DNA from: Catenulispora sp. EB89 | Lineage (GTDB): Bacteria; Actinomycetota; Actinomycetes; Streptomycetales; Catenulisporaceae | Assembly (NCBI RefSeq): GCF_041261445.1 | Contig: NZ_JBGCCU010000017.1 | Coordinates: 186,001 to 250,000 of the forward strand | Direction of reading: 5' to 3' | Length of the DNA stretch: 64,000 nucleotides | Shown: positions 1,211 through 22,793 of the stretch, piece by piece | Numbering within the stretch: position 1 is the stretch's first letter | Layout: the number at the start of each line of letters is the position of its first letter | Notes under the pieces: generated by a model | Seen by the model: the letters and a program-made list of their open reading frames with translations, nothing else | Database searches by the model: none | What the model was told of the DNA's origin: nothing | Made by a program: the position numbers and the translations under genes

Positions 1211-4200
1211 GGACCGTGACAGCCGAACCGACCGATCTCCCGTCCCCTTCCCGCGGCCGGTGGCAGCCGCTGCGCGCGGGTCTGGTCGACGTGTTCTACT
1301 ACGACGCCGAGGAATTCCGCTTCCACGACGGACGGCTGTTGCTCCGCGGCAACAACGGCACCGGGAAGTCCAAAGTCCTCGCCCTCACGCTGCCGTTCCT
1401 GCTGGACGGGGAGCTGACCCCGTCCCGCGTCGAACCGGACGGCGACCGCGCCAAGCGCATGGAGTGGAACCTGCTGCTGGGCGGCAAGCACCCCAACGAC
1501 GAGCGGCTGGGCTACACCTGGCTGGAGTTCGGCCGTCTCGACGAGAACGGCGTGCCGCAGTACCGGACCATCGGGTGCGGGCTGAAGGCGGTCAAGGGAC
1601 GCGGCATCGCCGACCACTGGTTCTTCGTCACCGACGAGCGCGTCGGCCCCGATCTCCCGCTGCGCAACGAGCACCGCGTCTCCTATTCCCGCAAGGCCCT
1701 GGAGGAGAGGGTCGGCGCACACGCGGTGTTCACCACTGCCAAGGCCTATCGCCGGGCGGTGGACGAGGCGCTGTTCGGCCTCGGGGCCGAACGCTACGAA
1801 GCACTCGTCAACCTGCTGATCCAGCTGCGCCAGCCGCAGCTGTCGAAGAAGCCCGACGAGAAGCTGCTGTCCAGGGCGCTCACCGAAGCGCTGCCGCCGC
1901 TGGCCGACGGCCTCGTCGGTGAGATCGCCGAGGCGTTCCGCGGCCTGCAGGACGAGCGCGACGCGCTGGCCGCCCTCGTCGAGGCGCACGGCGCGGCAAC
2001 CGCGTTCCTCGCCCACTACCGCCGCTACGCCCAGGTCGCCGCCAAGCGCACCGCCGCCGGCGTCAGGCAGTCGCACAGCCGGTACGAGCAGCTGGGGCGG
2101 GACCTCGGCGCGGCGACCACCGCCCGCGAACTGGCGCACGCCGCAGTCGTTGCCGCTGACGGTGAGCTGGCCGAGCTCGACGAACGCCAGACGCTGCTCA
2201 CCGCGCAGAAGGACGCGTACAACCGCGACCCGGCCATGGACACAGCCCGCGAGATCGACCGCCTGGCAAAGGTCGCCGAAACCCTCGCCGGCGTCGTGCG
2301 GACACGTGAGGAGGACCGCCGCCGCGCGGTACGGGACGCGGACAACTGGACGGCCCGTGCCGGGCAGGCGCAGCAGCGCGCCGAGTCCGACGCGGCCGAC
2401 GTCGACGCCCGGCACGGCGAAGCCGACGCCGCCGGACAGGCGGCCGGCGTCGACCACGGCGCGCTCCGATCAGCGCTCGTCACCGCGTCGGTCGCTTCGG
2501 ACCCGAACGCTCGGTCTGTCCCGTCGCGTGAAACGCCGGAGGTGACGGTCGCCGAGGCCGCCGTCGCCGCGGCGCGCCGGTCCGGCGACGCACTCATCCG
2601 CGACCGGCAGCAGGCGATCAGCGGGCTGCGGACGCTGCACCAGGCTTCTGAGACGGCCGCGCGTTCGCTCTCCGCCGCGCGTGCCGCCGCCGAACGTGCC
2701 GCGCGTGAGGCGACTGCCGCCGCCGAGCGCGCCGCCGCCTCGTCCGACGCCGTCGCCGCACGGGGCGAATCCCTGGTCGCCGCCTGGGAGTCCTGGAGCG
2801 CGCACTGCGTCGAGACTGCCCTGCCCGACCGCGACGCGGCCGTGTCCGAGCTGGGTCTGTGGGTGACGACACTCGACGGCCCGAACCCGTTTGCCCGGCG
2901 CGTCGAGGAGGCCGGCCGCGTCCACGCCGCGCACCTGAACCGCCGCGTCGCGGAGGTCGACGGACGTCGGACGCGCGCCGAGGCTGAGCACTCGGCGCTC
3001 GCGGCCGAGATCGCGCGCCTGGAGCAGGGCGGCCACGACGCGCCGCCGAAGCCCCACACCCGCGCCGCCGACGCCCGGTCGGCCCGGCCTGGCGCGCCGC
3101 TGTGGAAGGTCGTCGACTACCTGGACGACGTCACGGCCGCCGACCGCGCCGGCCTGGAGGCGGCGCTGGAGGCTTCGGGCCTGCTGGACGCGTGGCTCGC
3201 CCCGGACGGCCGGCTCCTCGACGACGTCACCGGCGATGTGGTCGTCGCGCCGACCGCCGCCGCTCCGGACCCGAGTCTGGCCGCCGCCCTCCGTCCCGCG
3301 ATCGACTCCGCCGATCCGCAGGCCGCCACGTTGGACGAGGAGGCCGTCGCGGCGATACTCGCGGGGATCGGAAGCGTCCAGGCGGGGGCTGCGGAGCCCG
3401 GTCATCACACCTGGATCAGCCCGGACGGCCGGTTCCGGGTCGGCGTGCTGCGCGGCGCCTGGCAGAAGGAATCAGCCCGCTACATCGGCGAGGGTTCCCG
3501 CGAGACCGCCCGCCGGGCCCGCCTCGCCGAACTCGCCGGGCAGGCCGCCCGGTTGACGGCCGAGATCGCGGCTCTCACCGGCGAGGTCCACACCATCGCC
3601 GCGCGGCTGGACGCGCTCGCGGGCGAGATGAGGGAACAGCCGTCCGACGCCGCACTCCGCGAGGCGCACACCCTCGCGACCGCACACGCCGCAGCCGCGC
3701 GGGAGGCGGCCGCGGCGCGCGCCGAAGCCCTCGCCGCCGTGGAGCCGGCGGCCGAGACCGCCGCCGACAGTGTGGCGGCGGTCCTGGCGTTCGCCGAGGA
3801 CACCCGCCTGCCGGCCGAGGCGCCTGCCCTGGAGACGGTCGCCGAAGCCCTCGCCGAGTATCGCCACAGCCTGTCGGGGCTGTGGCCCGCGGTGACCGCC
3901 GCCGCGCGTGCCGCCGCCGAGGCCGCCGTGGCCGAGCAGGAGCGTCGCCTCGCCGCCGCCCGACTGGCCGAAGCCGACGAGGCCGGACTCGCGGCCCGCC
4001 ACGACGCCGAGGCCGCCGCCGAGGAGCACCGCACCCTGGTGGCGACCTCGGGAGCCGCGGTCGAGGAGCTCTACCGGCGGCTCGAGGCCGTCCGCGTCGA
4101 GCTGGCCACCGCATCGGCTGCCACCAAGGTCGTCAGCAGCCGTCGTGAGCAGGCGCTCAAAGACCGGGAACGCGCCGAGGGCCGCCGGCTCCAGCTCGAG

Positions 4201-5421
4201 ACCGACATCACCGAGGCAACGAGCCTGCGTGACGAAGCCATCACCCTCCTGCGGCGCTTCGCCGCCACCGGCCTGCTCACCGCCGCGCTGCCCGATCTCG
4301 AACACCCCGACCCCGCCGAGGCCTGGGTCCCGGCCCCGGCCGTCGCGCTCGCCCGCGCGATCGACGCGGCTCTGGCGGCGGTCGACGACTCCGACGGCGC
4401 GTGGGAACGCGTCCAGGCCCGCGTCTCCCGCGAACAGCAGGAGCTTTCCGGAGCCCTGGCCCGCCACGGCCACCAGGTCGGCATGACCCTGCAGGACGGC
4501 CTCATGGTCGTCGACGTCCTGTTCGCCGGCCGTACCCAGGACGTCCCGTCCTTGACCGCTGCTTTGGACGCCGAGGTCGCCCAGCGCACCCGCCTGCTGT
4601 CCGCGAAGGAGCGCGAACTGCTGGAGAACCACCTCGTCGGCGAGGTGGCCGGAGCCCTCCAGGAACTGATCACCGAAGCCGAGGCGACGGTCCAGTCCAT
4701 GAACGACGACTTGGAGGCCCGCCCCACCTCCACCGGCATGGCCCTGCGCCTGGTCTGGCGCACCGCCAAAGGCGCGCCCGACGGGCTGGAGGCGATCCGG
4801 ACGCGACTGCTGCGCAAGGCCGTCGACGCGTGGAGCCCGGCCGACCGCACGGCCGTGGGTGACTTCCTGGCCCGGCGCATCACCGACGACCGTGCCGCCA
4901 ACCCCGCCGACACCTGGCACGACCAGCTCACCCGCGCGTTCGACTACCGCGCCTGGCACGAGTTCGGCATCCAGCGCCGCACCGACGGCGCCTGGACGTC
5001 GGCCGCCGGTCCCGCGTCCGGCGGGGAGCGGGTCCTGGCCGCGTCCGTTCCGCTGTTCGCCGCCGCGTCGTCGCACTACTCGTCCGGACATCCGCACGCA
5101 CCGCGGCTGATCGCCCTGGACGAGGCGTTCGCGGGGGTGGACGACGACTCGCGTGCCAAGTGCCTCGGGCTGCTGGCGGCGTTCGACCTGGACGTCGTCA
5201 TGACGTCCGAGCGGGAGTGGGCGTGCTATCCGACTGTGCCGGGCATCGGGATCGCCCAGTTGGCCCGAACCGAGGGCGTGGACGCGGTCCTGGTCACGCC
5301 GTGGCGCTGGGACGGACGCGACCGTCTGCGGTTGCCGCGGCCGGAGCCGTATCTGCCGCCGCAGCGTGCCCGCGACGCAGGGGCCCCGACGGGCCCCGAC
5401 CAGCCCCTGTTCTACACCTGA
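1207..5421 (+). CDS. jetC: Wadjet SMC-like ATPase JetC (TIGR02680 family)
   Basis: Motor subunit of Wadjet: an SMC/SbcC-like ATPase proposed to extrude plasmid loops until JetD cuts. With the GTG start at 1207, inside the jetB stop (GTGA overlap), the product is about 1404 residues. A second in-frame GTG at 1216 is possible. The Walker A motif GNNGTGKSK lies near residues 48-56. Between them and the C-terminus is a very long Ala/Glu/Arg-rich coiled coil interrupted by a globular segment near residues 620-760. The C-terminal head has the ABC signature SGGERV near residue 1270 and Walker B LIALDEAF near residue 1302. All ATPase motifs look intact. Longer upstream in-frame readings would overlap jetB and are not needed. 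Confidence 0.92.
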   Translation: MRTVTAEPTDLPSPSRGRWQPLRAGLVDVFYYDAEEFRFHDGRLLLRGNNGTGKSKVLALTLPFLLDGELTPSRVEPDGDRAKRMEWNLLLGGKHPNDERLGYTWLEFGRLDENGVPQYRTIGCGLKAVKGRGIADHWFFVTDERVGPDLPLRNEHRVSYSRKALEERVGAHAVFTTAKAYRRAVDEALFGLGAERYEALVNLLIQLRQPQLSKKPDEKLLSRALTEALPPLADGLVGEIAEAFRGLQDERDALAALVEAHGAATAFLAHYRRYAQVAAKRTAAGVRQSHSRYEQLGRDLGAATTARELAHAAVVAADGELAELDERQTLLTAQKDAYNRDPAMDTAREIDRLAKVAETLAGVVRTREEDRRRAVRDADNWTARAGQAQQRAESDAADVDARHGEADAAGQAAGVDHGALRSALVTASVASDPNARSVPSRETPEVTVAEAAVAAARRSGDALIRDRQQAISGLRTLHQASETAARSLSAARAAAERAAREATAAAERAAASSDAVAARGESLVAAWESWSAHCVETALPDRDAAVSELGLWVTTLDGPNPFARRVEEAGRVHAAHLNRRVAEVDGRRTRAEAEHSALAAEIARLEQGGHDAPPKPHTRAADARSARPGAPLWKVVDYLDDVTAADRAGLEAALEASGLLDAWLAPDGRLLDDVTGDVVVAPTAAAPDPSLAAALRPAIDSADPQAATLDEEAVAAILAGIGSVQAGAAEPGHHTWISPDGRFRVGVLRGAWQKESARYIGEGSRETARRARLAELAGQAARLTAEIAALTGEVHTIAARLDALAGEMREQPSDAALREAHTLATAHAAAAREAAAARAEALAAVEPAAETAADSVAAVLAFAEDTRLPAEAPALETVAEALAEYRHSLSGLWPAVTAAARAAAEAAVAEQERRLAAARLAEADEAGLAARHDAEAAAEEHRTLVATSGAAVEELYRRLEAVRVELATASAATKVVSSRREQALKDRERAEGRRLQLETDITEATSLRDEAITLLRRFAATGLLTAALPDLEHPDPAEAWVPAPAVALARAIDAALAAVDDSDGAWERVQARVSREQQELSGALARHGHQVGMTLQDGLMVVDVLFAGRTQDVPSLTAALDAEVAQRTRLLSAKERELLENHLVGEVAGALQELITEAEATVQSMNDDLEARPTSTGMALRLVWRTAKGAPDGLEAIRTRLLRKAVDAWSPADRTAVGDFLARRITDDRAANPADTWHDQLTRAFDYRAWHEFGIQRRTDGAWTSAAGPASGGERVLAASVPLFAAASSHYSSGHPHAPRLIALDEAFAGVDDDSRAKCLGLLAAFDLDVVMTSEREWACYPTVPGIGIAQLARTEGVDAVLVTPWRWDGRDRLRLPRPEPYLPPQRARDAGAPTGPDQPLFYT

Positions 5422-5426
5422 TCCGC

Positions 5427-6782
5427 ATGGCGGCCCCCGACGTCCCCGCCAACCATGTGGACCACGTGGACCACATGGACCACGTGGACCACATGGACCA
5501 CGTGGACCACGACCGCCTGCGCCGCCTGCTCGGCGCACCGGAACTCGCCTGGCTGGTCGACCGGGTCGCCGAACGGCTCGCAGCCGGCACCCCGGCCGCC
5601 GAGGGCACCGCGGCGCTGACCGACCCCAGCCCGGAGCAGCGCCGCGCCGCCGAACGCCTGCTCGGCCGGCCGCCCGGCCGCGGCAGGACCCTGACGATCA
5701 GGCTCGGCGACGTTGAGACAGTGCTCTGCGACTCCCGGATCAGCCCGGACGGCCTCGCCGCCGCGGTCACCGCCCTGCGCGGCCCGATCCCGGTCCGGCA
5801 CGAGACCGCGGCCGCCGACCGTACGGCTTGGGACTCCGCCCACGAACCGCTGGAGCGCCTGGCCGCCGACCGTCCCGAACTGGCGCCGTGGCTGCGTCAC
5901 GCCCGGGCGACCGGCCTGCTCAAGCGACATGCTCCGACCCCTGATGCGGCTCTCGGCCTGGCCGAGCAGTCCGCACGCGTACTGTCCGCGCTGCCGCACT
6001 CCGGCACCGTCCGCCCGATCCTCGCCGCCGGCGCCGTCGGCGACGCGCACGCGCTGGACGACGGCCGCCCGCTGAGCGCCCTCATCCTGTCCGCGATCCG
6101 CTCCCTGTCGGGACTGACCGCCGCCGACACCGCGCACGCCGAGGGTCGTCGCGCCGCCTGGGCGGGCGTCGGCGTCGCCACCGACGACCTGTCGTCGCGC
6201 GTCCTGGTCCTCAACATCCCGACGCCGCCCGGCGATGACAGCATCCTGTCACGCGTGCTACAGCTGGCCGCGGCCGACGGCGAACCGCTGACGCTGACTC
6301 TCCGCCAGCTGCGGGGGCTGCCCGCAGGCCACGCCGACCTGTCCGGGCAGACGGTGAGCGTCTGCGAGAACCCGGCGGTGGTCTCGGCAGCGGCCGACGC
6401 GTTCAGCGCCGAGTGCCTGCCGCTGGTGTGCCTCGAGGGCACCCCCTCGGTCGCCGCCACCCGCCTGCTCCGCTGGCTTCTGGACCGGGGAGCACGACTC
6501 CGCTACCACGGCGACTTCGACCCGGGCGGATTCCGCATCGCCGTCCAGGTCTTCGCCCTCGCCGCTCGCGCGGGCATCCCCGCCGCCCCCTGGCGCTACG
6601 ACAGTCGGGCTTACCTCGACGCCGCCGCGCGCGGCCTCGGCAGTCCGCTGGCAGCGCCGTCGTCCCCGGACACGCCTTGGGATCCCGACCTGCGCCACCA
6701 CCTCGAGACCAACGCCGTCCGCGTCGAGGAGGAGCATGTCGTGGGCGAGCTCCTGGACGACCTCGCTCGCGGAGAACGCTGA
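5427..6782 (+). CDS. jetD: Wadjet nuclease subunit JetD (TIGR02679, C-terminal DUF2399 Toprim)
   Basis: Nuclease of the Wadjet system, expected to cleave plasmid DNA through a topoisomerase-VI-like Toprim domain. The ATG at 5427 lies 5 nt after the jetC stop; the product is about 451 residues. The C-terminal third holds the DUF2399/Toprim signature: a conserved Glu in VCLEGTPS near residue 336 and the acidic YHGDFDPGG motif near residues 360-368. Catalytic residues therefore appear intact. The N-terminus is odd: residues 11-28 are six VDH/MDH tripeptides encoded by a 9-bp tandem repeat. Because every unit begins with GTG or ATG, the real start could be any of several codons inside the repeat. 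The stop is followed by a gene-poor stretch, so jetD ends the operon. Confidence 0.9.
   Translation: MAAPDVPANHVDHVDHMDHVDHMDHVDHDRLRRLLGAPELAWLVDRVAERLAAGTPAAEGTAALTDPSPEQRRAAERLLGRPPGRGRTLTIRLGDVETVLCDSRISPDGLAAAVTALRGPIPVRHETAAADRTAWDSAHEPLERLAADRPELAPWLRHARATGLLKRHAPTPDAALGLAEQSARVLSALPHSGTVRPILAAGAVGDAHALDDGRPLSALILSAIRSLSGLTAADTAHAEGRRAAWAGVGVATDDLSSRVLVLNIPTPPGDDSILSRVLQLAAADGEPLTLTLRQLRGLPAGHADLSGQTVSVCENPAVVSAAADAFSAECLPLVCLEGTPSVAATRLLRWLLDRGARLRYHGDFDPGGFRIAVQVFALAARAGIPAAPWRYDSRAYLDAAARGLGSPLAAPSSPDTPWDPDLRHHLETNAVRVEEEHVVGELLDDLARGER
5457..5510 (+). repeat. Six-unit 9-bp tandem repeat in the 5' end of jetD
   Basis: Six in-frame copies of RTGGACCAC (R is G,G,A,G,A,G in order) encode alternating Val/Met-Asp-His. 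Unit junctions form the palindrome CCACGTGG or the near-palindrome CCACATGG. Copy number could change by slippage without breaking frame. Confidence 0.95.
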
Positions 6783-8101: not shown

Positions 8102-8851
8102 TCACGGCAGTCCCGACTGTGCCTGTGAGTCCTCGGGGGTGGCTTCGCGGCCGAGGTATGCATGGGCTGCGGTCAGGCTCTCGATCGAGTCGGCGGTGAT
8201 CATCGGTCCCGGGCAGGCCAGGCACCCCAGGAGCGATTCGTCGGCGAGCCTGGCGAGCGCGTCCGACAAGGCCATGCCGTCGCGCAGGTAGCCGAGAAGG
8301 ATTCGGCCGATCACCATGTAGCCGGTGTTGACGGGCAGGTCGATGATCGGTCGCTCGTGGAAGGCCGTGACATGGTCGTCGGCGGTCTGGACGAATCCGA
8401 ACGGGAGCCGCAGTTCGGCGACAGCGATAGCGCTGTCGAAGCGACCGGAGGCTGCCAGGTGCCACAGTGCCGCCAGATCGACGGGCGCGAGAGTATCGCC
8501 GAGAACGACGAGGGTCGGCAGGGCCTGGTCGCTGTGGGTGTGCCACCAGGTCATCTTCTCGGCCTGGGTTCCGCGGTGGACAAGGACGCGTACCTCCGGC
8601 GCTTTGGCCCGGTCCGCTTCGTCGGCCGGTGTCGCGAGCAGACTCAGGACCGGGTCCGGCTCATCGACGATGACATCGACCGTGGTGATGCCATATGCCT
8701 GCGCGCGCAGGACATGGCGGGCGACGAAGCTCATGCCGTGAACCGGCAGGAACGCCTTGTAGATGGTCCCGCGAAGCGACTCCATCCGGGTATTGCTGCC
8801 CCCGGCCAGAACGACGACCGACTGCGCTCGCCACCTGTGGTCAATGCTCAT
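8102..8851 (-). CDS. Nucleotidyltransferase (NTP_transferase-like)
   Basis: Predicted sugar-phosphate or related nucleotidyltransferase of about 249 residues. The N-terminus has the family signature VVLAGGSNTRM (residues about 10-20) with the downstream Lys in YKAFLPVHG, matching the usual LAxGxGTR...PK(P)L pattern. A metal-binding-type Asp follows in VVLGDTLAPVD near residue 108. The chosen ATG overlaps the stop of the upstream gene by 4 nt (ATGA), strong support for this start over a longer in-frame upstream reading. It is the last gene of a five-gene minus-strand operon with an HD phosphohydrolase and two NUDIX-like proteins. The substrate is unknown. The operon context suggests building or activating a nucleotide conjugate, which is inference. 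Confidence 0.75.
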   Translation of the reverse strand: MSIDHRWRAQSVVVLAGGSNTRMESLRGTIYKAFLPVHGMSFVARHVLRAQAYGITTVDVIVDEPDPVLSLLATPADEADRAKAPEVRVLVHRGTQAEKMTWWHTHSDQALPTLVVLGDTLAPVDLAALWHLAASGRFDSAIAVAELRLPFGFVQTADDHVTAFHERPIIDLPVNTGYMVIGRILLGYLRDGMALSDALARLADESLLGCLACPGPMITADSIESLTAAHAYLGREATPEDSQAQSGLP

Positions 8852-9525
8852 CGTTCCAACAGCGGTATAGCGGAGCGGATACACAGACCGCCGATGCAGA
8901 CCTCGAACGGGTTCAGCGAGTCGTCGACGATGAGCGCGTCGCCGGCGTTCATCGCGCGCACGACCAAATCGTGCCGCGCCCAGATAAGTCGGGTGTACGC
9001 CTGCGTCGACTCGGGGATCTCCTTGGCCCCGGCTGTGACGACGGCCTCGTAGGTCAGCATCTCGGTCCACTCGGCAGTCTCGGTACCCAGCGGGTCCTCG
9101 ACGAGGTCCAGTGCGGTGGCTGCCAAGGTCGCGACAGCCTCGAAGCGCTGGCCGACCAGGGCATCGGCGATGCCGACTTTCCGGGCGACGAGGCTCTCCA
9201 GCACGAACGCCGCAGGATGGCGCGAGACGTCGCCTGTCCCGAGTCGGAAGGATCTACCCGCGCTCCTCGGCTTGATGCCAACTTCGGTCAGGCGCGGACA
9301 GGCCTCATGGGCGAGTATCGCGAACAGGGGTTCGGGAACACGGGCGGTGGGCGTGCTCAGAACACCGGGGTGCCTGGGCATCGACGGAACGTTGCGCCGG
9401 ACCCCAAGGAGCACCTCTTGCCGGGTATCGTCGCGGAACAACACGAGAGACACCACACGCACTGGGTTGTTTCTGTCCGCACCTTCTGTCGTGCGCAGCA
9501 GGTTCGCCATGGCCTCGTCAGGCAT
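8848..9525 (-). CDS. NUDIX-like protein with degenerate box
   Basis: A 225-residue protein whose N-terminal half reads like a NUDIX fold: a beta strand (VRVVSLVLFRDDTRQEVLLG), then HPGVLSTPTARVP in place of the usual glycine loop. The segment where the NUDIX box should lie, FVLESLVARKVGI, keeps one Glu and the Gly-Ile but lacks the REx2EE core. If the fold is right, the enzyme is probably inactive, divergent or a ligand sensor. Its stop overlaps the next ATG (ATGA), and its start overlaps the preceding gene by 8 nt. A second protein with a similar domain is encoded immediately upstream. The fold is my reading of the pattern, not an established hit. Confidence 0.5.
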   Translation of the reverse strand: MPDEAMANLLRTTEGADRNNPVRVVSLVLFRDDTRQEVLLGVRRNVPSMPRHPGVLSTPTARVPEPLFAILAHEACPRLTEVGIKPRSAGRSFRLGTGDVSRHPAAFVLESLVARKVGIADALVGQRFEAVATLAATALDLVEDPLGTETAEWTEMLTYEAVVTAGAKEIPESTQAYTRLIWARHDLVVRAMNAGDALIVDDSLNPFEVCIGGLCIRSAIPLLER

Positions 9526-10888
9526 CGCCCTGCCCCTTGGCGTTCCCTGGGAATCGGTAGCCGAACACGGCCTCGCGCAGCCATGCGTCCCGACGCCGCA
9601 GCAATCGATTCAGCTGGGGCCTGGTCTGGCTGGCGTACAGGTTCCGCAGCGGCACGGTCTGCAGGTCAGGACTCCAGTTCTTGGCATGCGCCAGTTCGTC
9701 GGCGGTCGAGGATCGCACCAGATCCAGGCGGTAGACGTAGAAGCCCAGCCAGGAGTTCTCGCCTTCGCGATCCAGCAGGCAGGTTCCGCGGAAGTCCAGC
9801 CGGTCGGCGGAGATGTCCAGACCGCAGCTCATGAACAGATCACGCTGGGCGGCACGTCGGAAGGCTGCCTCCGGCACTTCGAAGGTCTCCGGTTGGCCGG
9901 CGCGCAGCCACATATCCTCCAGCGCCTTCTCCAGGTCCATATCGGCTGGTCCGGTGAGCAGCTCTGCGAGGTCCTCCACAAGCACCCGCTCGCTGATCAG
10001 CGACAGCAGTCCGAAGTCGTCGCGGGAGTTGCGCGGGGTGCGGAGTTTGAGCAAGACGGCCGGCCCGCGCGGGGTAGGCGTACAGATCGCGACGGCCACT
10101 GCTGGGACCACGGAATCGGCGGGCCTGCGTTGGGTGTTGAATCCGGTGATTACTGGATGGAACTCACGGCCGGTTGTCGCTGGCTCGGCCGGTTCCGGTT
10201 CCAGGCCGCACAACACCTGGCGCGGCGCCAACGGCATGGACCGACCGACCAGTGACTCCAGGTACTCCAGGAAGTCGCTGACCTGGTCAGCAGGCATCGC
10301 CGAGAGGACGAGGGTGGTCTCGTCGGCACCGCCGGCCGCCGCGGCCGTACGAACCGGCGGCAGCTGGCTGATGATGGTGATGCTGTGCGTCCGTCCGCGC
10401 CGGGTGTAGACGATGCAGTCGAGGAACACGTCGTCGAACTCGAAGATCTGCAGTGCCTCCGGACCGTCCGACAGCGGCGCCAGCCAGTTGCGCAGTCCGG
10501 TGATGCCGGCGACCCATCGCTGCACGACTCGCCCCAGAACACCGGAGTGCCGGTACAGGGTGATCCGGTCGCGCGCGGGCGTCAGATAGCGAACTTGGCG
10601 CGGGTGGATGACCGGCAGCCCTTCGCGAGTCCGCTCACCCTCCAACTCGATGAGCCGTTCCGCACAAGGCCAGGGCAGGACGCCGAGGATGTCGACCACA
10701 TCAGCGGCGATCACCTCTTGCATCAGGCCCTCGATGTCCGGACCGATCGGGGCGTAAGCGATGGCCATGCTGGAATCCGTGTGGGCGGGTAACGTCCCCG
10801 AGCCGGCAGCGGCGCCTTGGGATCTTCTCCCGCCGAGCGCGCGCTGCGCCGCCCGGACCTCGGCCGGGACGTCCTCGTCAACGGCCAT
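9518..10888 (-). CDS. Large protein with C-terminal NUDIX-like domain, function unknown
   Basis: About 456 residues from ATG 10888, whose first base overlaps the TGA of the upstream gene (TGATG). The first 270 residues have no recognised family and are rich in hydrophobic and Arg residues, with FEFDDVFLDCIVYTRRG near the middle. The C-terminal part restarts with a strand resembling a NUDIX domain (VPAVAVAICTPTPRGPAVLL). A box-like segment AQRDLFMSCGLDI keeps Arg, a Glu-to-Asp change and Gly but lacks the two central Glu residues. A WLGFYVYRLDL strand follows. Together with the next gene it forms a pair of NUDIX-like proteins with altered catalytic residues. A longer upstream start is possible but would overlap the preceding gene more deeply. 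Confidence 0.45.
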   Translation of the reverse strand: MAVDEDVPAEVRAAQRALGGRRSQGAAAGSGTLPAHTDSSMAIAYAPIGPDIEGLMQEVIAADVVDILGVLPWPCAERLIELEGERTREGLPVIHPRQVRYLTPARDRITLYRHSGVLGRVVQRWVAGITGLRNWLAPLSDGPEALQIFEFDDVFLDCIVYTRRGRTHSITIISQLPPVRTAAAAGGADETTLVLSAMPADQVSDFLEYLESLVGRSMPLAPRQVLCGLEPEPAEPATTGREFHPVITGFNTQRRPADSVVPAVAVAICTPTPRGPAVLLKLRTPRNSRDDFGLLSLISERVLVEDLAELLTGPADMDLEKALEDMWLRAGQPETFEVPEAAFRRAAQRDLFMSCGLDISADRLDFRGTCLLDREGENSWLGFYVYRLDLVRSSTADELAHAKNWSPDLQTVPLRNLYASQTRPQLNRLLRRRDAWLREAVFGYRFPGNAKGQGDA

Positions 10889-11313
10889 CAGGACACCGCC
10901 TGGCGGCCCCGCCGATACACGGACCCGATCCGGTCCATCATGGATTCCCATGCTTCCATCAAGGCGTCCTCGTCAACAGGTGACTGCCCCGCACTGGCGA
11001 TGAATCGCATGCACGCCTCGCGGGCGGCGGCGTCCTGAAGTCGCAGGGCCAGCAGGTACAGGCGCCGACGCGGCGGGCTCTGACGGCCGGTGAACACCGC
11101 CGTCGGCGACGCGCCGTCATCGAAGAGGGCCATGATGTCGGCGGCCGTCCCGCGCTGCACGTCACGGTCCTTGTCACGGCGGGAGAGCGCCGACGTCGTC
11201 ATCGGGGCCAGCAGCGCCAGCACCGCACCCAGAGTGGTGCCCGCCAGAGTGAACACCTGCTGTACCACCAGCACCAACCCCCCTTCGGCGGCGCACCACG
11301 CACAAGACGGCAC
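10888..11313 (-). CDS. Small membrane-anchored protein, unknown function
   Basis: About 141 residues. A hydrophobic segment near residues 12-40 (VFTLAGTTLGAVLALLAP) suggests a single N-terminal membrane anchor, followed by a basic stretch (SRRDKDRDVQRG) and a cytoplasmic helical domain of about 95 residues. The start is uncertain: an in-frame GTG about 13 codons downstream would give a more typical N-terminus. The gene ends in a 1-nt overlap with the next start and begins 52 nt after the HD gene stop, so it belongs to the same transcription unit. No family recognised. A role tethering or sensing at the membrane for the operon is inference. Confidence 0.6.
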   Translation of the reverse strand: MPSCAWCAAEGGLVLVVQQVFTLAGTTLGAVLALLAPMTTSALSRRDKDRDVQRGTAADIMALFDDGASPTAVFTGRQSPPRRRLYLLALRLQDAAAREACMRFIASAGQSPVDEDALMEAWESMMDRIGSVYRRGRQAVS

Positions 11314-11365
11314 TGAGTGTGACGATACGGTTTTCAGCGCATCAAATCAGACCACAGATACCCGG

Positions 11366-11980
11366 TCAACCCAGATGCCGGTCGCTCTCGGCCTGGTCGA
11401 TCATCTGGTCGCAGACCGCCGCGAGAGCACCGATGGTGTCGCGAACCCGCTTGAGCCTGCTCCGCACGTCGTCGGCGCGAACGCCGTGCTCCACCCACGA
11501 GGAACGCTCGACGTTGCTGAAGTTCAGGACAATCGGACACAGTGTGTCCATACCCTTCACGAAACGCGCCTCGGGAGTGGTCTGGGCCTCGTACTCCGAC
11601 CACAGATCCACAAGCCTGCCCACTGCCGCGTTGTTCGGATGCCGTGCGCGCAGTTCGCGCATCGCCGCAACCTCGCGGTCTTTCTTGCCCACGATCGCGA
11701 CAGCGTCATAGGCGAAGGTGTCGCCGACGAACGCCTCGGCCGCATCGTGCAGCACAGCGAGCAATGCGGCCTTGGCGACGTCGATGGGCTCGGGCGAATA
11801 TTCAGCCAATAGCAACGCAGCTACAGCCAATTGCCAGGAGTGCTCGGCGACCCGTTCCTTGCGCTCTCCCGAAAACAGAGGGTTCTGGCGCTCGACATCC
11901 TTCAGAGGCTCGAAACCGAGCAGCACCACCAGCTCTTCGGGAAGGTCATTCAGGATCTTCTCGCTCGCACGGTCCGTCAC
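11366..11980 (-). CDS. HD-domain phosphohydrolase (YfbR/HD_3-like)
   Basis: A 204-residue HD-superfamily protein, most like the small 5'-deoxynucleotidases (YfbR, PF13023-type). Metal-binding residues are visible: His in ERVAEHSW near residue 47, the HD pair in AVLHDAAEAF near residue 79, and a later Asp in KGMDTLCP near residue 144. Such enzymes dephosphorylate nucleoside monophosphates in the cytoplasm. It is the first gene of the minus-strand operon ending at 8102 and lies 283 nt downstream of the NACHT-WD40 gene on the same strand, with only weakly structured sequence between. It could serve as the nucleotide-supplying or effector enzyme of that operon, which is inference. Confidence 0.8.
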   Translation of the reverse strand: MTDRASEKILNDLPEELVVLLGFEPLKDVERQNPLFSGERKERVAEHSWQLAVAALLLAEYSPEPIDVAKAALLAVLHDAAEAFVGDTFAYDAVAIVGKKDREVAAMRELRARHPNNAAVGRLVDLWSEYEAQTTPEARFVKGMDTLCPIVLNFSNVERSSWVEHGVRADDVRSRLKRVRDTIGALAAVCDQMIDQAESDRHLG

Positions 11981-12263: not shown

Positions 12264-15200
12264 TCAAGACAAAATCGGCTCGTCCGCTGCGAGTAGTTTG
12301 ATATTCGGGTAGAATCTGTCGATCTCGCCGGGACGGAATCTGCACAACTTGACCGCCCACCAGAGACCTTCGCCGACATCGCCCTGTACTTTGTACGAGC
12401 CGTCCGGCAAGAGGACAGCCGTGCCGGTGGGATATACGACGAACGTGGCGAGAAGTCGGCCTGAAGCATCCCACAGACGGATCGACCCATCCATCGCCGA
12501 GGTCGCGATCTGTGTACCGTCAGCACTGAACGCCCCGCCAGTGACGAGACCCGCGGAGTCCGAGAGCGAGAGACGGCACCGGCCCGTAACACAGTCCCAG
12601 ACGCGCATCGACTCAGAGGACACGGTCGCGATCAGGCCACCATCCGGGGAGAACACGACCCCAACCGTCGCACTGGCCCGGAACTCTTTGCGCAACGAGC
12701 GACCACGCGTGTCCCAGATACGCACCGAACCGTTGCGGGAGGCGCTGGCCATTCGCGCCCCGTCCGACGTGAACGCGACGCTGTCGACGGCCTGATGGCT
12801 GTACCCCGACGAGAATCCCGACTGGTTGTAGAGCGACACGCTTCCGTCCTTGAACCCAGTGACGGCCAGCTGTCCGTCGGGAGCGAACGCGACCCTGCTG
12901 GACTCGTATGTGGTGAGCGTGGCGATTTCACGGCCGTCGAGGACGCTCCACAGCCGGCTCGGGCCGTTCCAGCTCGTTGTGGCCAGCATGGTGCCGTCCC
13001 GAGACACCGCGAGGCTTCTGAGCCGGCCGGCATTGCGGACAGTGATGACGCGCCTTGCCGGAGCGGTGCTCCAGATGTGAGCCGCCCCGCTGGAATCCTG
13101 AAGTGCCACCCAACGACCGTCGCTAGTGAGGATTGCGCCGGAACCGGCTGAACCCTCGTCCGACCTCATCACCGTGGCCTGGCCAGTTCTGGTGTCCCAG
13201 GCCCATACCCGGTCCCCGGTTGTCGCAATGAGCCGGCCGTCCGGCGCGAAGGCCACTGATGAGATCGGTTCGGCGCGATGGCTGTCGACGAGTTGGAACT
13301 CCCCCGCGCCCTGCCACGTCGCGAGCTCGCCGCCCGGCAGGACCAGGGCGACCGCCTGGGCGTTCGACGCCAGTGCGACCCCGACGGCGCCCTGGGGGAC
13401 ATCGGCGACAACCACACCCCGGTGGGCATCGCAAACCCGAGTCCGCCCCGCACCGACCGTGACGGCCACGAGGTTTCCCTCCTGGGAAAACGCAACAGCC
13501 TCCACCGAGGCATCCAGATAAGGTACCGCCGCCAATTGTGCGCCGGACCTTTCCCAAAGCCGTGCGATACCGTCCTTGCACCCGGTGGCGACGATCTGGC
13601 CGTCCGAAGACATCGCAACGCAGGTCACAGCAGCCGGATGCTCACCCAGCAACGTCTGCCCGCCATTGCGGGCGTCCAGCACTGAGACAATCCCCTGTGC
13701 CGTGGCAAAGACCAGATAGTCGTCGTCAGCAGAGAAGGCCATCGCGGTCACCGCTCCCCTCTGACCGAGTCGAAGCTCGGACAGCGACCCGCCTCCTACG
13801 CTCCAGAAGCGGACCGACCCATCCGCCGACCCGGTTGCGACAAGGGCACCGTTGTGTGTGAACGTCACGGCGGTCACCGCGGCAGAGTGCCCGGTGAACG
13901 TTGCTTGCAGCTCACCGGTCATCGTCCAGACGCGAACTGAGTGATCTGCGGATGCAGAGGCCACGAGCCGACCGTCACGCGATACGGCTACGGCCAACAC
14001 CGGAGCGGTATGACCGGTGAGGACCCGCAGCGTCTGGGCAGAAACGGTGTCAACGATCTCGACCGATTGATGTCGGCTCACTGCAACCAGGCCATTGACA
14101 CCCAAATCACCCGCGACACTGCGGGCCCGACCGCCCGCCGGCCGCGCCGGAGTCGCGGCGTCCCGGCCCACCACAGCGGCCGACCGGAGTTCGACCGCGT
14201 CCGGCCTGTCTTCGATGCCAGCCACCCCGACGAGCGCGGCACGCTCCCATCGGCTGCCGGTCAGACTCGTCCCCGTAAGGCTGCCCTTGATCATCCACGC
14301 GCCGGTGAAATCGGCTCCCCGCAGATCAGCGTCCTGAAGGTCCAGGTCGACCAACCGCATGCCGCGGAAATCAGCCAGCTGCAGATCAGCACCTCGCAAG
14401 TTCGTCGAGGACAAGTCCAGCCCCCGCAGGTCGATGCCCGCCAGATTCACTCGCACATTCATGTTCTGACTCAGCCGCAGGATGATGGCGGCGGCGTTCT
14501 GCCGGGCCGGCGCCGGGGCTCGGCCGTCCTGGACGGTCCTCTCCGCCCAAGCCATCACCAGTTCCGTCCCGGCGAGATCGCCGAGAAAATCGATCATCAA
14601 CGGCGAGAGCGGCTGGACTGACAGCACATCGGCCGAGACGCCTGCTTTCAGGAACCGCGCCGCCGCATCCGCGACCAGCCACTCCATCACCGATCGATGA
14701 ACGAAATCGAACTCGTCGTCCGCCGTCCGAACCAGGAGGCTTCCCGATCCGATCGCTTGTGTCGCTTGATCCGAGCTGTACCCGTAGTCGAACATGCGAA
14801 CGAGAGCGTGCGAAACCTCCATCGACAGGTCCGTCAACGTGATCACGCCTGTGGGCGACGACCAGAGGGCCACAGCCAGCGCCTCGCAGGCCTGTCGTCG
14901 ATCCCCGTCGCTGAACGACGGCAGACCCCCGTCATGGTGCTGACGCTCGGCCTCGTACGCCAGCCATCTGGCTATCAGTTCCTGATAGAGGTCGGCCGCG
15001 CTGATTCGCCCCTTCGCGTTCCGGATCTCCCGCAGACGCTCGATGTCGAGTCCGACGATGAACGACAGCATCCTGGGGTTGTGCGAAAGCCCCAACAAAT
15101 CCTTGATGTCCTGAAGAAGCGTGTAGCGTTCGGCTGCCGCGTCCACGTCTCCGCCGAAGTACTTGACGAGGTAGTCGTGGATCTGATCGTCGCTGAAGTC

Positions 15201-17960
15201 GGCGAGCTCGACGACCCGGCTGACGTCCCTGCCGATGACACGCTCGCCGAGCGCAGTGCGCACCTGTTGCTCGGAGCGGAAATGTTGCGTGCGGCTGGTC
15301 AGAACGATCTTGGCTTGTCCGCTTGCGGCGTCGATCAGGGACCGGAGGTGCAGTGCGGCGTTGTCGTAGCTGATTCTCAGCACAAGCTCGTCGAAGCCGT
15401 CGAACAAGAGGGCTATCCGGCCGCTGCGCACGAGGTATCTCAGCTTCTCCAGATCGATCTGCCGCTCACCCATGCGAACCAGATGCTGGGAAAGCAACTC
15501 GTCGAGGCTGGGCCGCTTCTCCAGATGGCGCAGCTCGACGAGTATCGGCTGCAGGCTCGGGAGGCGGTCAGGCATGCGACGGCACAACTCGTTGAGGAGG
15601 AAGGTCTTACCCCGTCCGAAGTCGCCCAGCACCATGATGAACATCGCCTGCTCATCGGCGAGCCAGCCCAGTACGCGTTCGAGCAGGTCTTCCTTGACGG
15701 CGCGTGTATGACTCCTGTTGTCCTCCAAGAAGCGTTGCGGGACGTAAAGCCGTGACGGATAGCGCTGGTCGGTCGCCAGCCTGCGCCTCTGCTGTTTGTC
15801 GAACGCCGACAGGTCGGCAATGCCCTGGTACTCGATGAAGCGGATCAGTCGGACGCCGCTGGAAATCGCAGTGTGGACCAGGTCGGGAGCGGCCGGCTCC
15901 CCGAAATACACAAGCTTCGACGGGGTGCCCGGGTCCGCGGCCGCGAAGTGGTCATGGACATTCCGAACGAAACCATCGATGCTCGCCCTGTCCGGGACGC
16001 CTTCCACGACGCCGACGGCCCACTGCTCACACGCCTCGTCGGCCAGCTTCGAGGTGACCCGCAGATACCGGTCGCGGCCGTCACGGGTACACACCACTAT
16101 CGAAGCATGCTGGTGCAGCATCGCCGTGACTTCGCGGACCTGTTCCAGCAGGCCGTCCATGGCGGTCGGCCGCACCGCGGATTCCGAATTCCGCATATCC
16201 AGCGCTGTTCCCCAGCCCAATTGCGCTTCCGGGTCTGCGAAGACCGCGACCGAGTCGGACAATTGATGACTGCTCTGCACCTGCCAGCTGGAGCGTGACT
16301 CGGACACCTCCATATCGCCCGTCCACTGCCCGTGGCGATGGTTGTAAATCCTGCCATGCTGTGTAATGCCGTCGCGGTTGATTTCCACCAGCTGGTACTG
16401 CTGAGGATGGACATCCGCGAATGGCCCCTTGACCATGGCCGAGGCCCCGGATGATATTGCCGCGATTCCCGACGGCAGTACTCGCGCACACCCGTCGGTA
16501 CCGCGCCCGTGGAACAGCACCTGAATCAGCCGCCGGCCCTGGGAGTCCTCCTCGCCGAACATCCTTTCGAGATCGGATGCGTCATGCAAGTTCTCACCGA
16601 ACGGGTCAGCCGCTCCCCGCAAATTGTGATGGACAGTCGCCAGCCGAAGCCATCCTTCGTCCCGGTACCGCACCAGCCGCTCGGCGAACCACTGCATTTG
16701 CGCACTACCGATGAAGCCATTACGGTCTTGGTTCTGATGACATTCAGCGATGGTCGAGTTGAACCCGGCGACCACGACACACAAGTCCGGTATCTCGAAC
16801 AGGGTCCAGGGCTCGTCAGGCGTGAAACTGGTGCCGTCCCGGTCGCGATAGAATTCGCGGAACATCGCGTCGAATTTCTCCCACTTCGGCCAGAACGGGG
16901 GAAGTGGCGTTTTCTCGTTCCCCTCCTGCCTCAGATGATATGCGGCACAGTCCGAGCGATTCACATCCTGACTCCCGGGAACAATGATCATTCGATCCCG
17001 GGGCAGCCCGACAGCGACGCCGAGTTTGGAGAGGGAGCGCCCAGCCGCTGAGAACTCCGACGGCTTCCCGCTCGCAGCCAGGTTGCCCGCGACGACAACC
17101 AAATCCGGATTTACGCCGGTATAGGAAACCGTGTCCGCGAGGTCTGCAAGGAGACCGTCGAAGAGAACGTCGGTGTCGGCCTCGAGCGCTCCGTCGCTAC
17201 CGCCGTGCTTCCTCGGCGATCCGAACAGCGTGTCCGACACATGGAGCACATTCACCGTGTCGACCGGCGCTCGGCGAATGCCCGAAGCCAGCACACTGAA
17301 CGCGTCAGGAAGGTGGAGGTCGCGGCTGCTCACCAGTGTGGACAATTCCTGCACCGAGATCGCGTAGGCATCGCGCTCGCCGGATGCGGCCGAAGGCGCG
17401 GCTGAGACGATTCCCAGCACATACCCGCTGGCCATATCGATGACGGGACTCCCACTGAACCCCGGTTGAATACGCACAGCGGAGTCATGCGCACTGTCGA
17501 CTTGCAGACGTCCACCACCAACACGGTTCCGCACCACCACCTCGGCCCAAGCCCCACCCGGGCGCGCAGGCTTGGTCGGAAAACCGAATACCAGGGCCTT
17601 CAGCCCTGATCTCACCGGGTCCGGGAAGAGTCGGGCGGGAACGGGTTCGGGACGGACATCTGAGCGGATCCGCAGACGGGCCAAGTCTCCGCTGTCGACA
17701 CCTTCTTGCGGCGGTGGCCTCCACAACGTGACCGAGGCCAACACAATCCCGGACGGCTGCGCACTGCGCAGCGGGAAGGCGACTTCAACGAGACCACGCG
17801 GTATAGACTGTGACCGCGGATCCAGTCCCATCGCGACATTCACCACATGTGCGCACGTAACGAATTCGTTCAGGCTCACCATCACCCCGACGCCGGCGCT
17901 CTTGCCGCCGTGAGCGCGTACATGAACGATGGAGCCTTCTGTGTTCGAATGAGCAGCCAT
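12264..17960 (-). CDS. Trypsin-like / dead phosphoesterase / NACHT / pentapeptide / WD40 STAND protein
   Basis: A 1898-residue signal-transduction ATPase. Domains in order: trypsin-like protease (1-220) with catalytic His in VTCAHVV and Ser in QPGFSGSPV; metallophosphoesterase-like domain (235-530) with key ligands replaced (SDTLFG, AGNLAASG, PGSQDVN, HGRGTD); a linker with SKLVYFGEP and VRLIRFIEYQG (590-745), possibly an inactive nuclease-like fold; NACHT with Walker A GDFGRGKT near 775, Walker B LLFDGFDEL near 850 and LTSRTQ; a helical region; pentapeptide repeats (1168-1237); about 13 WD40 repeats (1300-1850) and a C-terminal cap. The start (ATG at 17960) overlaps the TRYPCO1-like stop by one base. 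By family knowledge such proteins sense invaders or self damage and activate a protease. The trigger is unknown. Confidence 0.85.
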   Translation of the reverse strand: MAAHSNTEGSIVHVRAHGGKSAGVGVMVSLNEFVTCAHVVNVAMGLDPRSQSIPRGLVEVAFPLRSAQPSGIVLASVTLWRPPPQEGVDSGDLARLRIRSDVRPEPVPARLFPDPVRSGLKALVFGFPTKPARPGGAWAEVVVRNRVGGGRLQVDSAHDSAVRIQPGFSGSPVIDMASGYVLGIVSAAPSAASGERDAYAISVQELSTLVSSRDLHLPDAFSVLASGIRRAPVDTVNVLHVSDTLFGSPRKHGGSDGALEADTDVLFDGLLADLADTVSYTGVNPDLVVVAGNLAASGKPSEFSAAGRSLSKLGVAVGLPRDRMIIVPGSQDVNRSDCAAYHLRQEGNEKTPLPPFWPKWEKFDAMFREFYRDRDGTSFTPDEPWTLFEIPDLCVVVAGFNSTIAECHQNQDRNGFIGSAQMQWFAERLVRYRDEGWLRLATVHHNLRGAADPFGENLHDASDLERMFGEEDSQGRRLIQVLFHGRGTDGCARVLPSGIAAISSGASAMVKGPFADVHPQQYQLVEINRDGITQHGRIYNHRHGQWTGDMEVSESRSSWQVQSSHQLSDSVAVFADPEAQLGWGTALDMRNSESAVRPTAMDGLLEQVREVTAMLHQHASIVVCTRDGRDRYLRVTSKLADEACEQWAVGVVEGVPDRASIDGFVRNVHDHFAAADPGTPSKLVYFGEPAAPDLVHTAISSGVRLIRFIEYQGIADLSAFDKQQRRRLATDQRYPSRLYVPQRFLEDNRSHTRAVKEDLLERVLGWLADEQAMFIMVLGDFGRGKTFLLNELCRRMPDRLPSLQPILVELRHLEKRPSLDELLSQHLVRMGERQIDLEKLRYLVRSGRIALLFDGFDELVLRISYDNAALHLRSLIDAASGQAKIVLTSRTQHFRSEQQVRTALGERVIGRDVSRVVELADFSDDQIHDYLVKYFGGDVDAAAERYTLLQDIKDLLGLSHNPRMLSFIVGLDIERLREIRNAKGRISAADLYQELIARWLAYEAERQHHDGGLPSFSDGDRRQACEALAVALWSSPTGVITLTDLSMEVSHALVRMFDYGYSSDQATQAIGSGSLLVRTADDEFDFVHRSVMEWLVADAAARFLKAGVSADVLSVQPLSPLMIDFLGDLAGTELVMAWAERTVQDGRAPAPARQNAAAIILRLSQNMNVRVNLAGIDLRGLDLSSTNLRGADLQLADFRGMRLVDLDLQDADLRGADFTGAWMIKGSLTGTSLTGSRWERAALVGVAGIEDRPDAVELRSAAVVGRDAATPARPAGGRARSVAGDLGVNGLVAVSRHQSVEIVDTVSAQTLRVLTGHTAPVLAVAVSRDGRLVASASADHSVRVWTMTGELQATFTGHSAAVTAVTFTHNGALVATGSADGSVRFWSVGGGSLSELRLGQRGAVTAMAFSADDDYLVFATAQGIVSVLDARNGGQTLLGEHPAAVTCVAMSSDGQIVATGCKDGIARLWERSGAQLAAVPYLDASVEAVAFSQEGNLVAVTVGAGRTRVCDAHRGVVVADVPQGAVGVALASNAQAVALVLPGGELATWQGAGEFQLVDSHRAEPISSVAFAPDGRLIATTGDRVWAWDTRTGQATVMRSDEGSAGSGAILTSDGRWVALQDSSGAAHIWSTAPARRVITVRNAGRLRSLAVSRDGTMLATTSWNGPSRLWSVLDGREIATLTTYESSRVAFAPDGQLAVTGFKDGSVSLYNQSGFSSGYSHQAVDSVAFTSDGARMASASRNGSVRIWDTRGRSLRKEFRASATVGVVFSPDGGLIATVSSESMRVWDCVTGRCRLSLSDSAGLVTGGAFSADGTQIATSAMDGSIRLWDASGRLLATFVVYPTGTAVLLPDGSYKVQGDVGEGLWWAVKLCRFRPGEIDRFYPNIKLLAADEPILS

Positions 17961-18304
17961 CACGTGGTCGAGGAACGATCTGCGTGCTCCTCCGACTTCC
18001 ATTTCAACGTGACGGTGAAGTGCGCCTCAACGCTGCCCTTCGCGACGATGAGTCCAGCCTCTGCGGCCAAGGTCAGCCCGAACTCGACGGTGTACTCCTG
18101 AGGGGCAATGGCGCGCAGGCGCCTCGCCACCGTATGCAATGCGGGCGTGATCTCGTCAAGGGAACGTTCGAGGGACTGGCTTGCCACGGCAAAGGTACGG
18201 TCGCCGTTCGGAGACGCAAGCCCGAGATCTCCGGCGCCTGAATCCACAGACTCAACCAGGAGCTCGCCGCCGCCGTCCAGCGGGATTTGCAGGATGTTGA
18301 CCAC
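17960..18304 (-). CDS. Trypsin-co-occurring domain (TRYPCO1-like) protein
   Basis: A 114-residue protein from a GTG start. Its pattern, N-terminal strand ILQIPLDGGGELLVES, a middle helix SLDEITPALHTVARRLR and the C-terminal QEYTVEFGLTLAAEAG...GSVEAHFTVTLKWK, matches the TRYPCO1 (CU044_2847-type) proteins encoded next to trypsin-like proteases in actinobacterial conflict systems. It is translationally coupled (TGATG) to the trypsin-NACHT-WD40 gene, and its length fits the family. In those systems the domain is thought to present a substrate or tag for the protease; here that is inference. No convincing Shine-Dalgarno sequence precedes the GTG, so the exact start is open. Confidence 0.8.
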   Translation of the reverse strand: MVNILQIPLDGGGELLVESVDSGAGDLGLASPNGDRTFAVASQSLERSLDEITPALHTVARRLRAIAPQEYTVEFGLTLAAEAGLIVAKGSVEAHFTVTLKWKSEEHADRSSTT

Positions 18305-21551: not shown

Positions 21552-22445
21552 TCAGCCCTTCGCCAGGTCGGCGCCGAGGTGCTGGGCCACCGCCTGGGCG
21601 ATCTGCTGAGCATTGGCGCCGCCGGCCAGGTGCGGGGCCAGGGCGGCGGCGAGGGCGTTGATGTCGACGGCCGGCGGGGCGCCGACGCGTCCGGCCAGGG
21701 CGGTGACGGCGTCGCGGGCCTGCTTGGCGTACAGGGCCGCGGCTCGGGCGCCGCCGTCGGCCCAGATCAGGGCGGTCTCGTTGTCGAAGTTCTGGTTCGC
21801 CGGGAACTGGCCGGCGATCTCCGGCCAGAACTGGCCGATGCTGGAGGGGATGGTGGCCACGGGATTGCCTCCGAAAAGGGGTGACGACGGGTGGGTCGGC
21901 GGTGCGGGTGTCGGCGGGTTCGGTGTCGGCGGCTTGGGCGTCGGCGCGCCGCCGGCGATCTGCGCCGCGCGGGCGATGATCTGCGGACGCTGGTCCAGGA
22001 TCGGTTGGCCGGGGCAGTCCAGGTGGCCGCCCCAGGCCTGGCCGCCGAGGCCGTGGCCGGTCAGGCCGGGCACGGTGCTGTCCGAGGGCTGGAGCGGGAC
22101 GCCGTAGGTGGTGTGGATCCAGGCGAACAGCTGGGCCGCGTTCTCCAGTTGCGAGGCGGTCAGGACGTCGCCGGAGTTGCCTTCGTTCTCGACCGAGATC
22201 CACTCCGGATTGCCGTCGACCTCGGCCCAGGCCCGGTCGTCGGTGTCGACCCACTGGTCCAGCGGGCCCGACTTCGGGTTGCCGAAGTGCGCGGAGACCT
22301 GCGAGGCCGGGTTGTGGAACCAGGCGTCCGTGCCGGACTCGGTGCCCTCCTGGATGTGCAGCACCAGGCCGCGGTGCGCGGACATGCCGCCGGGCGTCAG
22401 GTTCGGGACCGGGCCGCGCCAGGTCGCCTTGGGGAATCGGGCCAT
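21552..22445 (-). CDS. N-acetylmuramoyl-L-alanine amidase (phage endolysin type)
   Basis: A 297-residue amidase_2/PGRP-type hydrolase that should cleave the lactyl-amide bond of peptidoglycan. Zinc-ligand candidates are His in LVLHIQEG near residue 30 and the pair in TGHGLGG...GGHLDCPG near residues 129-143. The catalytic domain is residues 1-165; a Pro/Thr-rich linker (about 165-185) and a C-terminal helical domain with GAPPAVDINALAAAL repeats follow, probably a wall-binding or oligomerisation module. There is no signal peptide, so it needs a holin or cell lysis for release. It lies in the tail operon next to two small membrane-type proteins, as in phage or tailocin lysis cassettes. Confidence 0.82.
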   Translation of the reverse strand: MARFPKATWRGPVPNLTPGGMSAHRGLVLHIQEGTESGTDAWFHNPASQVSAHFGNPKSGPLDQWVDTDDRAWAEVDGNPEWISVENEGNSGDVLTASQLENAAQLFAWIHTTYGVPLQPSDSTVPGLTGHGLGGQAWGGHLDCPGQPILDQRPQIIARAAQIAGGAPTPKPPTPNPPTPAPPTHPSSPLFGGNPVATIPSSIGQFWPEIAGQFPANQNFDNETALIWADGGARAAALYAKQARDAVTALAGRVGAPPAVDINALAAALAPHLAGGANAQQIAQAVAQHLGADLAKG

Positions 22446-22446
22446 G

Positions 22447-22737: not shown

Positions 22738-22793
22738 GGATGTCCCGTGGGTCGAAGGTGGTTCGGGTGCTCCCTCCGTCGGCTCCGCGGGGA

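Follow-up and report, generated by a model that had tools for sequence, protein, structure and literature searches.

NUDIX domains can serve as sensors, as in NrtR, which senses ADP-ribose (PMC9503650), and in human TRPM2, whose NUDT9-H domain is inactive (PMC6461439). CBASS and the NAD+/ADP-ribose systems combine a signal enzyme, a sensor, and a membrane part in a mobile location (PMC9503650). The operon described here lies on the minus strand at positions 8102-11980 of a 64,000-nucleotide (nt) stretch of the Catenulispora sp. EB89 genome (the window; G000:C17:186001-250000, from an actinobacterial genome of 11.9 Mb), and its five genes encode an HD-type phosphohydrolase, a small membrane protein, two proteins of 456 and 225 amino acids (aa) with NUDIX-like parts, and a nucleotidyltransferase. 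The combination suggests a hitherto undescribed accessory system that makes or senses a nucleotide-linked compound. The set is described in no paper found in the open-access literature, judged by title and the start of the abstract, a scope outside which preprints and many journals fall. Our tentative reading is that of an accessory cassette that would act on, and sense, a nucleotide-linked metabolite at the membrane.

All five open reading frames (ORFs) were confirmed, and the tight coupling asserted in the earlier note stands. In the order of transcription, they are the genes for the HD_3 phosphohydrolase (204 aa; 11366..11980), which has a predicted YfbR/HDDC2-like 5'-deoxynucleotidase fold; the predicted single-pass membrane protein (128 aa; 10888..11274); the 456-aa protein (9518..10888); the 225-aa protein (8848..9525); and the GT-A-type nucleotidyltransferase (NTPT; 249 aa; 8102..8851). 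The last four overlap, by 1 nt (position 10888, read from the sequence), 8 nt (9518-9525), and 4 nt (8848-8851), respectively; the HD gene does not, ending 52 or 91 nt before the membrane gene, depending on whether the latter starts at GTG 11313 (which would give 141 aa) or at GTG 11274. The second start is the likelier, with AAGGGGGG just upstream as its presumed Shine-Dalgarno sequence. A gene caller based on GC by codon position picked four of the five ORFs in the window, leaving out NTPT; the same caller picks the NTPT gene in the congener G012 and in an Agromyces metagenome-assembled genome, and the window protein aligns with both at 36-37% identity.

Are these five genes a unit or mere neighbors? 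In G012, all five are present in the same order; three of the junctions are 4-nt overlaps, and the membrane and 456-aa genes lie 105 nt apart. Identities to the window proteins are 42% (HD), 37% (456-aa), 40% (225-aa), 36% (NTPT), and 29% for the membrane protein (29-30% depending on the alignment); the recurrence of the same order and tight junctions at such distances argues that the set is more than a chance arrangement. The G012 copy is a 4,819-bp (4.8-kb) island among housekeeping genes: DNA homology between G012 and another congener, G013, stops at base 13944 of the retrieved sequence, where tRNA-Pro(cgg) ends (L004:13870-13944), so that the island begins exactly at the 3' end of the tRNA gene, and restarts at 18764. 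G013 lacks the island and has ~630 bp of other sequence at that site. The cargo consists of the five operon genes and one divergent NUDIX gene (L005:660-1178; PF00293, 3.9e-8; without RExxEE), to which the window's genome offers much weaker matches only, in other NUDIX genes (best E 1.4e-6). The same tRNA-Pro is flanked by other genes in G000 (the source of the window), G005, and G007, and the operon proteins have no tblastn match at 1e-4 in these three stretches. Across five congeners (L004, L071-L074), insertions at the tRNA-Pro(cgg) gene vary, and the cargo in G005 includes ParB_N, DUF932, and HEPN_Swt1 genes. In G000, the operon sits elsewhere, on contig C17. Found at two unrelated sites, one of them an island missing from a congener, the five genes form an accessory cassette that varies horizontally.

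Both enzymes appear intact, as the earlier note had said. The HD protein matches Pfam HD_3 (E=1.6e-36), and its nearest solved relatives are 3kh1 (6.8e-29), human HDDC2 (4dmb, 3.5e-14), and Escherichia coli YfbR (2paq, 3.7e-4); its metal residues H47, H78-D79, E82, D87, and D145 are kept in all five aligned HD proteins. Family match and metal ligands place it in the HD_3/YfbR-type group, with nucleotidase activity predicted. NTPT exceeds the Pfam cut-off for NTP_transf_3 (E=1.6e-8) and keeps GGxN[TS]R, K32, G118-D119, N175, and D221 in 3/3 sequences; the GG..[TS]R signature, the catalytic Lys, and the metal Asp of the GD motif we take to have the roles that they have in the nucleotidyltransferase family. 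Signature residues and Pfam match mark NTPT as being of the sugar-1-phosphate nucleotidyltransferase type, again with predicted activity. Its nearest solved relatives belong to the 6-deoxy-(manno)heptose pathway (2.3e-8 and 6.5e-8) or are mannose-1-phosphate guanylyltransferases (4.5e-7), which favors a metabolic cassette: NTPT and HD would produce or remove an unusual nucleotide or NDP-sugar (a sugar linked to a nucleoside diphosphate) for a modification or a specialised metabolite, and the NUDIX-type proteins would be scaffolds or, like GDP-mannose mannosyl hydrolase, enzymes of changed mechanism. Genes for a glycosyltransferase, a sugar epimerase, or a biosynthetic partner, however, are absent from the 4.8-kb G012 island, and a purely metabolic role appears unlikely.

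The 225-aa protein escapes the family libraries: nothing in Pfam, NCBIfam, or PADLOC matches it at E<=1, nor does any PHROGs family at E<=0.01, and three scanned relatives are likewise unrecognised, Pfam NUDIX included. Its AlphaFold2 model, built from an alignment of five sequences, has a mean predicted local distance difference test score (pLDDT) of 80.7 and a predicted TM-score of 0.81. Foldseek returns 797 matches at E<=10, and the 39 at E<=1e-3 are all NUDIX proteins by title. The best, GDP-mannose mannosyl hydrolase (1rya, 8.5e-5), lends the metabolic alternative some further support, but many other NUDIX families fall within a tenfold E-value and the link to GDP-mannose is weak. Among the 50 matches listed, TM-scores are modest (0.30-0.45 by query length, up to 0.62 by target length) and root-mean-square deviations are 5-13 Å, which suggests a NUDIX topology with loosely fitting details. 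Profile comparison points the same way: against 25 NUDIX domains encoded in the window's own genome (26 loci, less the partial L042, dropped beforehand), the 225-aa alignment scores 20.5, which none of 60 column shuffles reaches (best 14.1) and which exceeds the scores of three other operon alignments used as controls (11.0-16.2), although hhalign's own probability for the match is only 3%. Model and profile together indicate that the 225-aa protein has a NUDIX fold.

What this fold has lost is the catalytic signature. RExxEE is found in 23 of the 25 NUDIX domains of the genome and is missing from all five scanned 225-aa-type proteins (window, G012, Agromyces, Kribbella, and L016, which represents Streptomyces). 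The 225-aa protein lacks the NUDIX box Gx5Ex7REUxEExGU, and a six-row alignment, in which the Kribbella and Streptomyces rows are 21-24% identical to the window protein, shows no conserved glutamate pair at 65-75 or 104-117. Going by the order of structural elements, the NUDIX helix would span residues 104-117; LxARKxG falls in this segment, and L112 and K116 are invariant in 6/6 rows. By contrast, hhalign aligns the box with residues 59-85. Neither placement reveals conserved catalytic glutamates. This family has motifs of its own, HPxVxSxPT and LxARKxG, and a C-terminal GLC.

The 456-aa protein is harder to read. The libraries that miss the 225-aa protein miss this one, too, at the same thresholds (E<=1; PHROGs, E<=0.01). 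Its N-terminal part (~50-215; block-mean pLDDT 39-78) has a single Foldseek match at E<=1e-3, the PLD nuclease SauUSI (6.5e-4), followed by NgoAVII R (2.5e-3), and is probably a PLD-like domain. The HxKx4D motif is not found in this region of any of the four 456-aa-type proteins; the window protein has a single copy further on, at residue 401 within its C-terminal part, and the other three have none. The C-terminal part (~258-445) scores 25.7 against the 25 NUDIX domains (P 0.0013; best of 60 column shuffles, 19.4) with a Kribbella row excluded from the alignment, and P is 3.2e-4 with that row; in the structure search, it reaches only NUDT14 at E about 0.1, at a model pLDDT of 25-46. Its aligned helix reads AAQRDLFMSCGL, compared with AAxRELxEExGL in active enzymes, and RExxEE is absent from all four 456-aa-type proteins. 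The profile comparison thus supports a NUDIX-like assignment for the C-terminal part only. The earlier note had called both proteins NUDIX-like with their key glutamates lost: the loss holds for both families, the 225-aa assignment is borne out by fold search, both assignments find support in profiles, and for the 456-aa protein the claim does not extend to the N-terminal part. A close duplication linking the 225-aa protein to the 456-aa C-terminus was considered and is not claimed, since no direct relationship was found (hhalign probability, 0.9%).

The membrane anchor predicted earlier is apparent in the 128-aa protein as an N-terminal hydrophobic helix (hydropathy peak 1.83 at residues 1-25), followed by a helical tail that looks cytoplasmic. 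A different arrangement occurs in the Agromyces genome (L013), in which a 456-aa-like gene, a 225-aa-like gene, and NTPT stand together: here, the 456-aa-like protein is itself fused to N-terminal membrane helices (hydropathy 2.57 over residues 4-54), and tblastn finds neither an HD gene nor a separate membrane gene in the 16.6-kb locus. This fusion, the PLD-like domain, and the sixth, divergent NUDIX gene of G012 were missing from the gene set as first described.

How widespread are these families? The genome searches scored 4-12 candidates per genome, and the counts are lower bounds. The 456-aa protein occurs in at least 2 of 14 genomes in the family (source genome included) and at least 2 of 391 in the order, the same two, and its alignment recovers at least 1 of 246 genomes searched; the 225-aa alignment recovers at least 2 of 394 genomes in the class. 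A 225-aa-like piece from Streptomyces G048 finds at least 2 of 295 Streptomyces genomes, G048 itself and one at E 3e-4. A single-sequence scan of genome contigs yielded no relative, an alignment scan yielded four loci (L013, L014, L015, and L016), and the viral contigs, phages, and plasmids searched yielded no relative of the NUDIX/PLD proteins. Several candidates were discarded: weak matches in G045 and G445 were not recovered with a larger alignment; NTPT matches in G559, G029, and G408 are generic, with no further operon gene found by tblastn at 1e-4 in those 16-kb loci; and a generic NTPT match on a Cupriavidus plasmid adjoins an epimerase and, by ORF reading, an intact-looking NUDIX gene. 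Among the seven loci found with a 225-aa-like gene, an HD_3 gene is adjacent in five, and a 456-aa-like gene and NTPT are present in three.

The loci outside this core differ in their partners. In two intact Streptomyces loci (L014:7022-10436 and L016:7022-10452), HD_3 is divergent from the 225-aa-like gene, which is followed by SufS-like and NifU/SufU-like genes; in G048, HD_3 adjoins a truncated 225-aa-like gene. The SufS-like and NifU/SufU-like genes would suit the metabolic cassette. These clusters may be a separate system that uses the same NUDIX-fold family. In Kribbella (L015), the 225-aa-like gene overlaps an upstream XRE-HTH gene (Pfam HTH_3, 9.7e-9), and neither HD nor NTPT is nearby. 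Such a pairing speaks for a regulatory module, in which the 456-aa/225-aa pair would sense a normal cell metabolite and control a membrane or transcription output, with NTPT and HD as secondary passengers. Yet, beyond its HTH, the Kribbella protein shows no significant similarity to the 456-aa family (tblastn finds nothing at 1e-4; the hhalign score of 20.9 is reached by 2/60 shuffles), and its candidacy as a fused 456-aa form was rejected. The tight five-gene coupling in two species also argues against passengers. A regulatory module is the least probable of the readings considered.

If the two NUDIX-type proteins do not hydrolyze, why are they made together with two enzymes? The reading tentatively preferred here, synthesis or turnover and membrane sensing of a nucleotide-linked ligand, is suggested by the combination of two apparently intact enzymes, two proteins whose nucleotide-binding folds lack the hydrolytic residues, and a membrane tether. 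In this model, NTPT would join a nucleoside triphosphate to a phosphorylated, sugar-phosphate-like compound, giving a nucleoside diphosphate-linked product (NDP-X); the two NUDIX-type proteins, no longer hydrolyzing by the usual metal-dependent route, would bind NDP-X or a related nucleotide; the small one-helix protein would hold the 456-aa PLD-like/NUDIX-like protein at the membrane, and the latter would pass its state on; and the HD nucleotidase would remove a nucleotide, which would either end the signal or, upon activation, drain (deoxy)nucleotides as the output. The tether step draws support from the Agromyces fusion, and the frequent adjacency of HD_3 to the 225-aa-like gene favors the model as a whole, as do the shared gene order at a second site, the compact G012 island, the NUDIX fold without RExxEE, the retained signature residues of both enzymes, and the sensor precedents NrtR and TRPM2. 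Several points weigh against it: (i) the NUDIX-type proteins do not always come with both enzymes, Agromyces lacking HD and Kribbella both HD and NTPT; (ii) key NUDIX residues have also been lost from GDP-mannose mannosyl hydrolases, which nevertheless act as enzymes (PMC5389931), so that residue loss does not prove the NUDIX-type proteins dead; (iii) the PLD-like call depends on a poor model of the 456-aa protein (mean pLDDT 43.5) from a three-row alignment, one row of which was the Kribbella XRE protein later judged not significantly related; and (iv) the ligand, its binding, the direction of the pathway, and any part in defence are deduced from sequence and models.

A narrower version makes the operon an immune-type signaling cassette: the GT-A NTPT would produce a nucleotide-sugar-like messenger, dead NUDIX domains would be its receptors, the dead PLD-like domain and the small membrane protein would relay the signal, and the HD nucleotidase would terminate or execute the response. 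In this specific form, the proposal is distinctly unlikely. Both this version and the broader reading are weakened by the failure of the Kribbella case, which would have pointed to an exchangeable output domain.

The surroundings of the window operon raise the question of defence. The island location noted earlier is confirmed: a Gabija pair, GajA (6.8e-238) and GajB (9.8e-198), lies ~17 kb before the operon (contig C17 173139-176763; L012:3138-6763), a complete type II Wadjet system, JetA-JetD, is next to it (contig 184242 to window 6782; L012:14242-15936 plus window 11-6782), and a 1912-aa NACHT/WD40 protein is encoded at 12264-18304. The latter has a protease-like N-terminus, a NACHT-associated inactive nuclease domain, pentapeptide and WD40 repeats, and, below cut-off, an anti-phage phosphoesterase-like region; its gene is overlapped on the upstream side by a gene for Trypco1, a domain that occurs with trypsin-type conflict systems (PMC7159879). 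Past this island, ORF reading reveals a minus-strand run of phage-tail or lysin-like genes (window 21552-31548).

A role in anti-phage or anti-plasmid defence, with the HD enzyme (by depleting deoxynucleoside mono- or triphosphates) or the membrane protein as effector and the NUDIX/PLD proteins as trigger, would be a special case of the sensing model; whether the operon defends was judged separately. Besides the neighbors, the variable tRNA-Pro site in five congeners, with a HEPN_Swt1 gene in one, and a low GC (0.665-0.667, compared with 0.673-0.770 in 2-kb segments outside 8-20 kb) make defence plausible. On the other side, PADLOC matches neither the five window proteins (E<=1) nor the five G012 and three Agromyces proteins (E<=0.01), and among the operon's relatives it recognizes, at E<=0.01, only generic HTH models in Kribbella and, in the sixth G012 gene, the NUDIX-type candidate model PDC-S07. 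Recognised defence neighbors occur at one of the three loci with the 456-aa-like, 225-aa-like, and NTPT core, that of the window; the G012 island sits among housekeeping genes, and the ORFs read at the Agromyces locus include no obvious defence gene. The conflict or signalling role suggested in the earlier note stays putative. The viral contigs, phages, and plasmids searched yielded nothing beyond the one generic NTPT match, and islands also carry non-defence genes. A defensive function is possible, if somewhat doubtful. As for the outcomes that the earlier note would have taken as telling against its proposal, linkage is not confined to housekeeping or sugar-pathway genes, and neither protein comes out as unrelated to NUDIX domains.

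If the sensing model is right, nucleotide sugars or similar NDP-X compounds would join the small list of bacterial nucleotide messengers, and their receptors would be dead NUDIX domains. A metabolic cassette would still define two protein families missed by Pfam, NCBIfam, and PADLOC, on a compact island that could be moved whole into a laboratory host.

Set against known systems, each component is familiar in part. The HD protein matches the HD_3/HDDC2-YfbR 5'-deoxynucleotidases in sequence and metal residues but scores 31.3 bits against the NCBIfam 5'-deoxynucleotidase equivalog, whose cut-off is 122. NTPT shares signature residues and fold family with the GT-A sugar-1-phosphate nucleotidyltransferases (heptose- and mannose-1-phosphate guanylyltransferases and RmlA) but scores far below all NCBIfam equivalog cut-offs and has different operon partners. 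CBASS and the NAD+/ADP-ribose systems share only their general logic with the operon, which has no CD-NTase, SMODS, TIR, SLOG, Macro, or SLATT match in Pfam or PADLOC and no CBASS pairing of CD-NTase with cap effector (PADLOC, E<=1), and whose NTPT is of the sugar-phosphate type. The 225-aa protein shares the fold of the NUDIX superfamily, several non-standard members of which also have an absent or altered NUDIX box (PMC5389931); unlike that superfamily at large, it lacks RExxEE, carries HPxVxSxPT and LxARKxG instead, and is invisible to Pfam NUDIX. Its nearest described counterparts in fold or role are GDP-mannose mannosyl hydrolase, an enzyme, and NrtR, a NUDIX sensor (PMC9503650).

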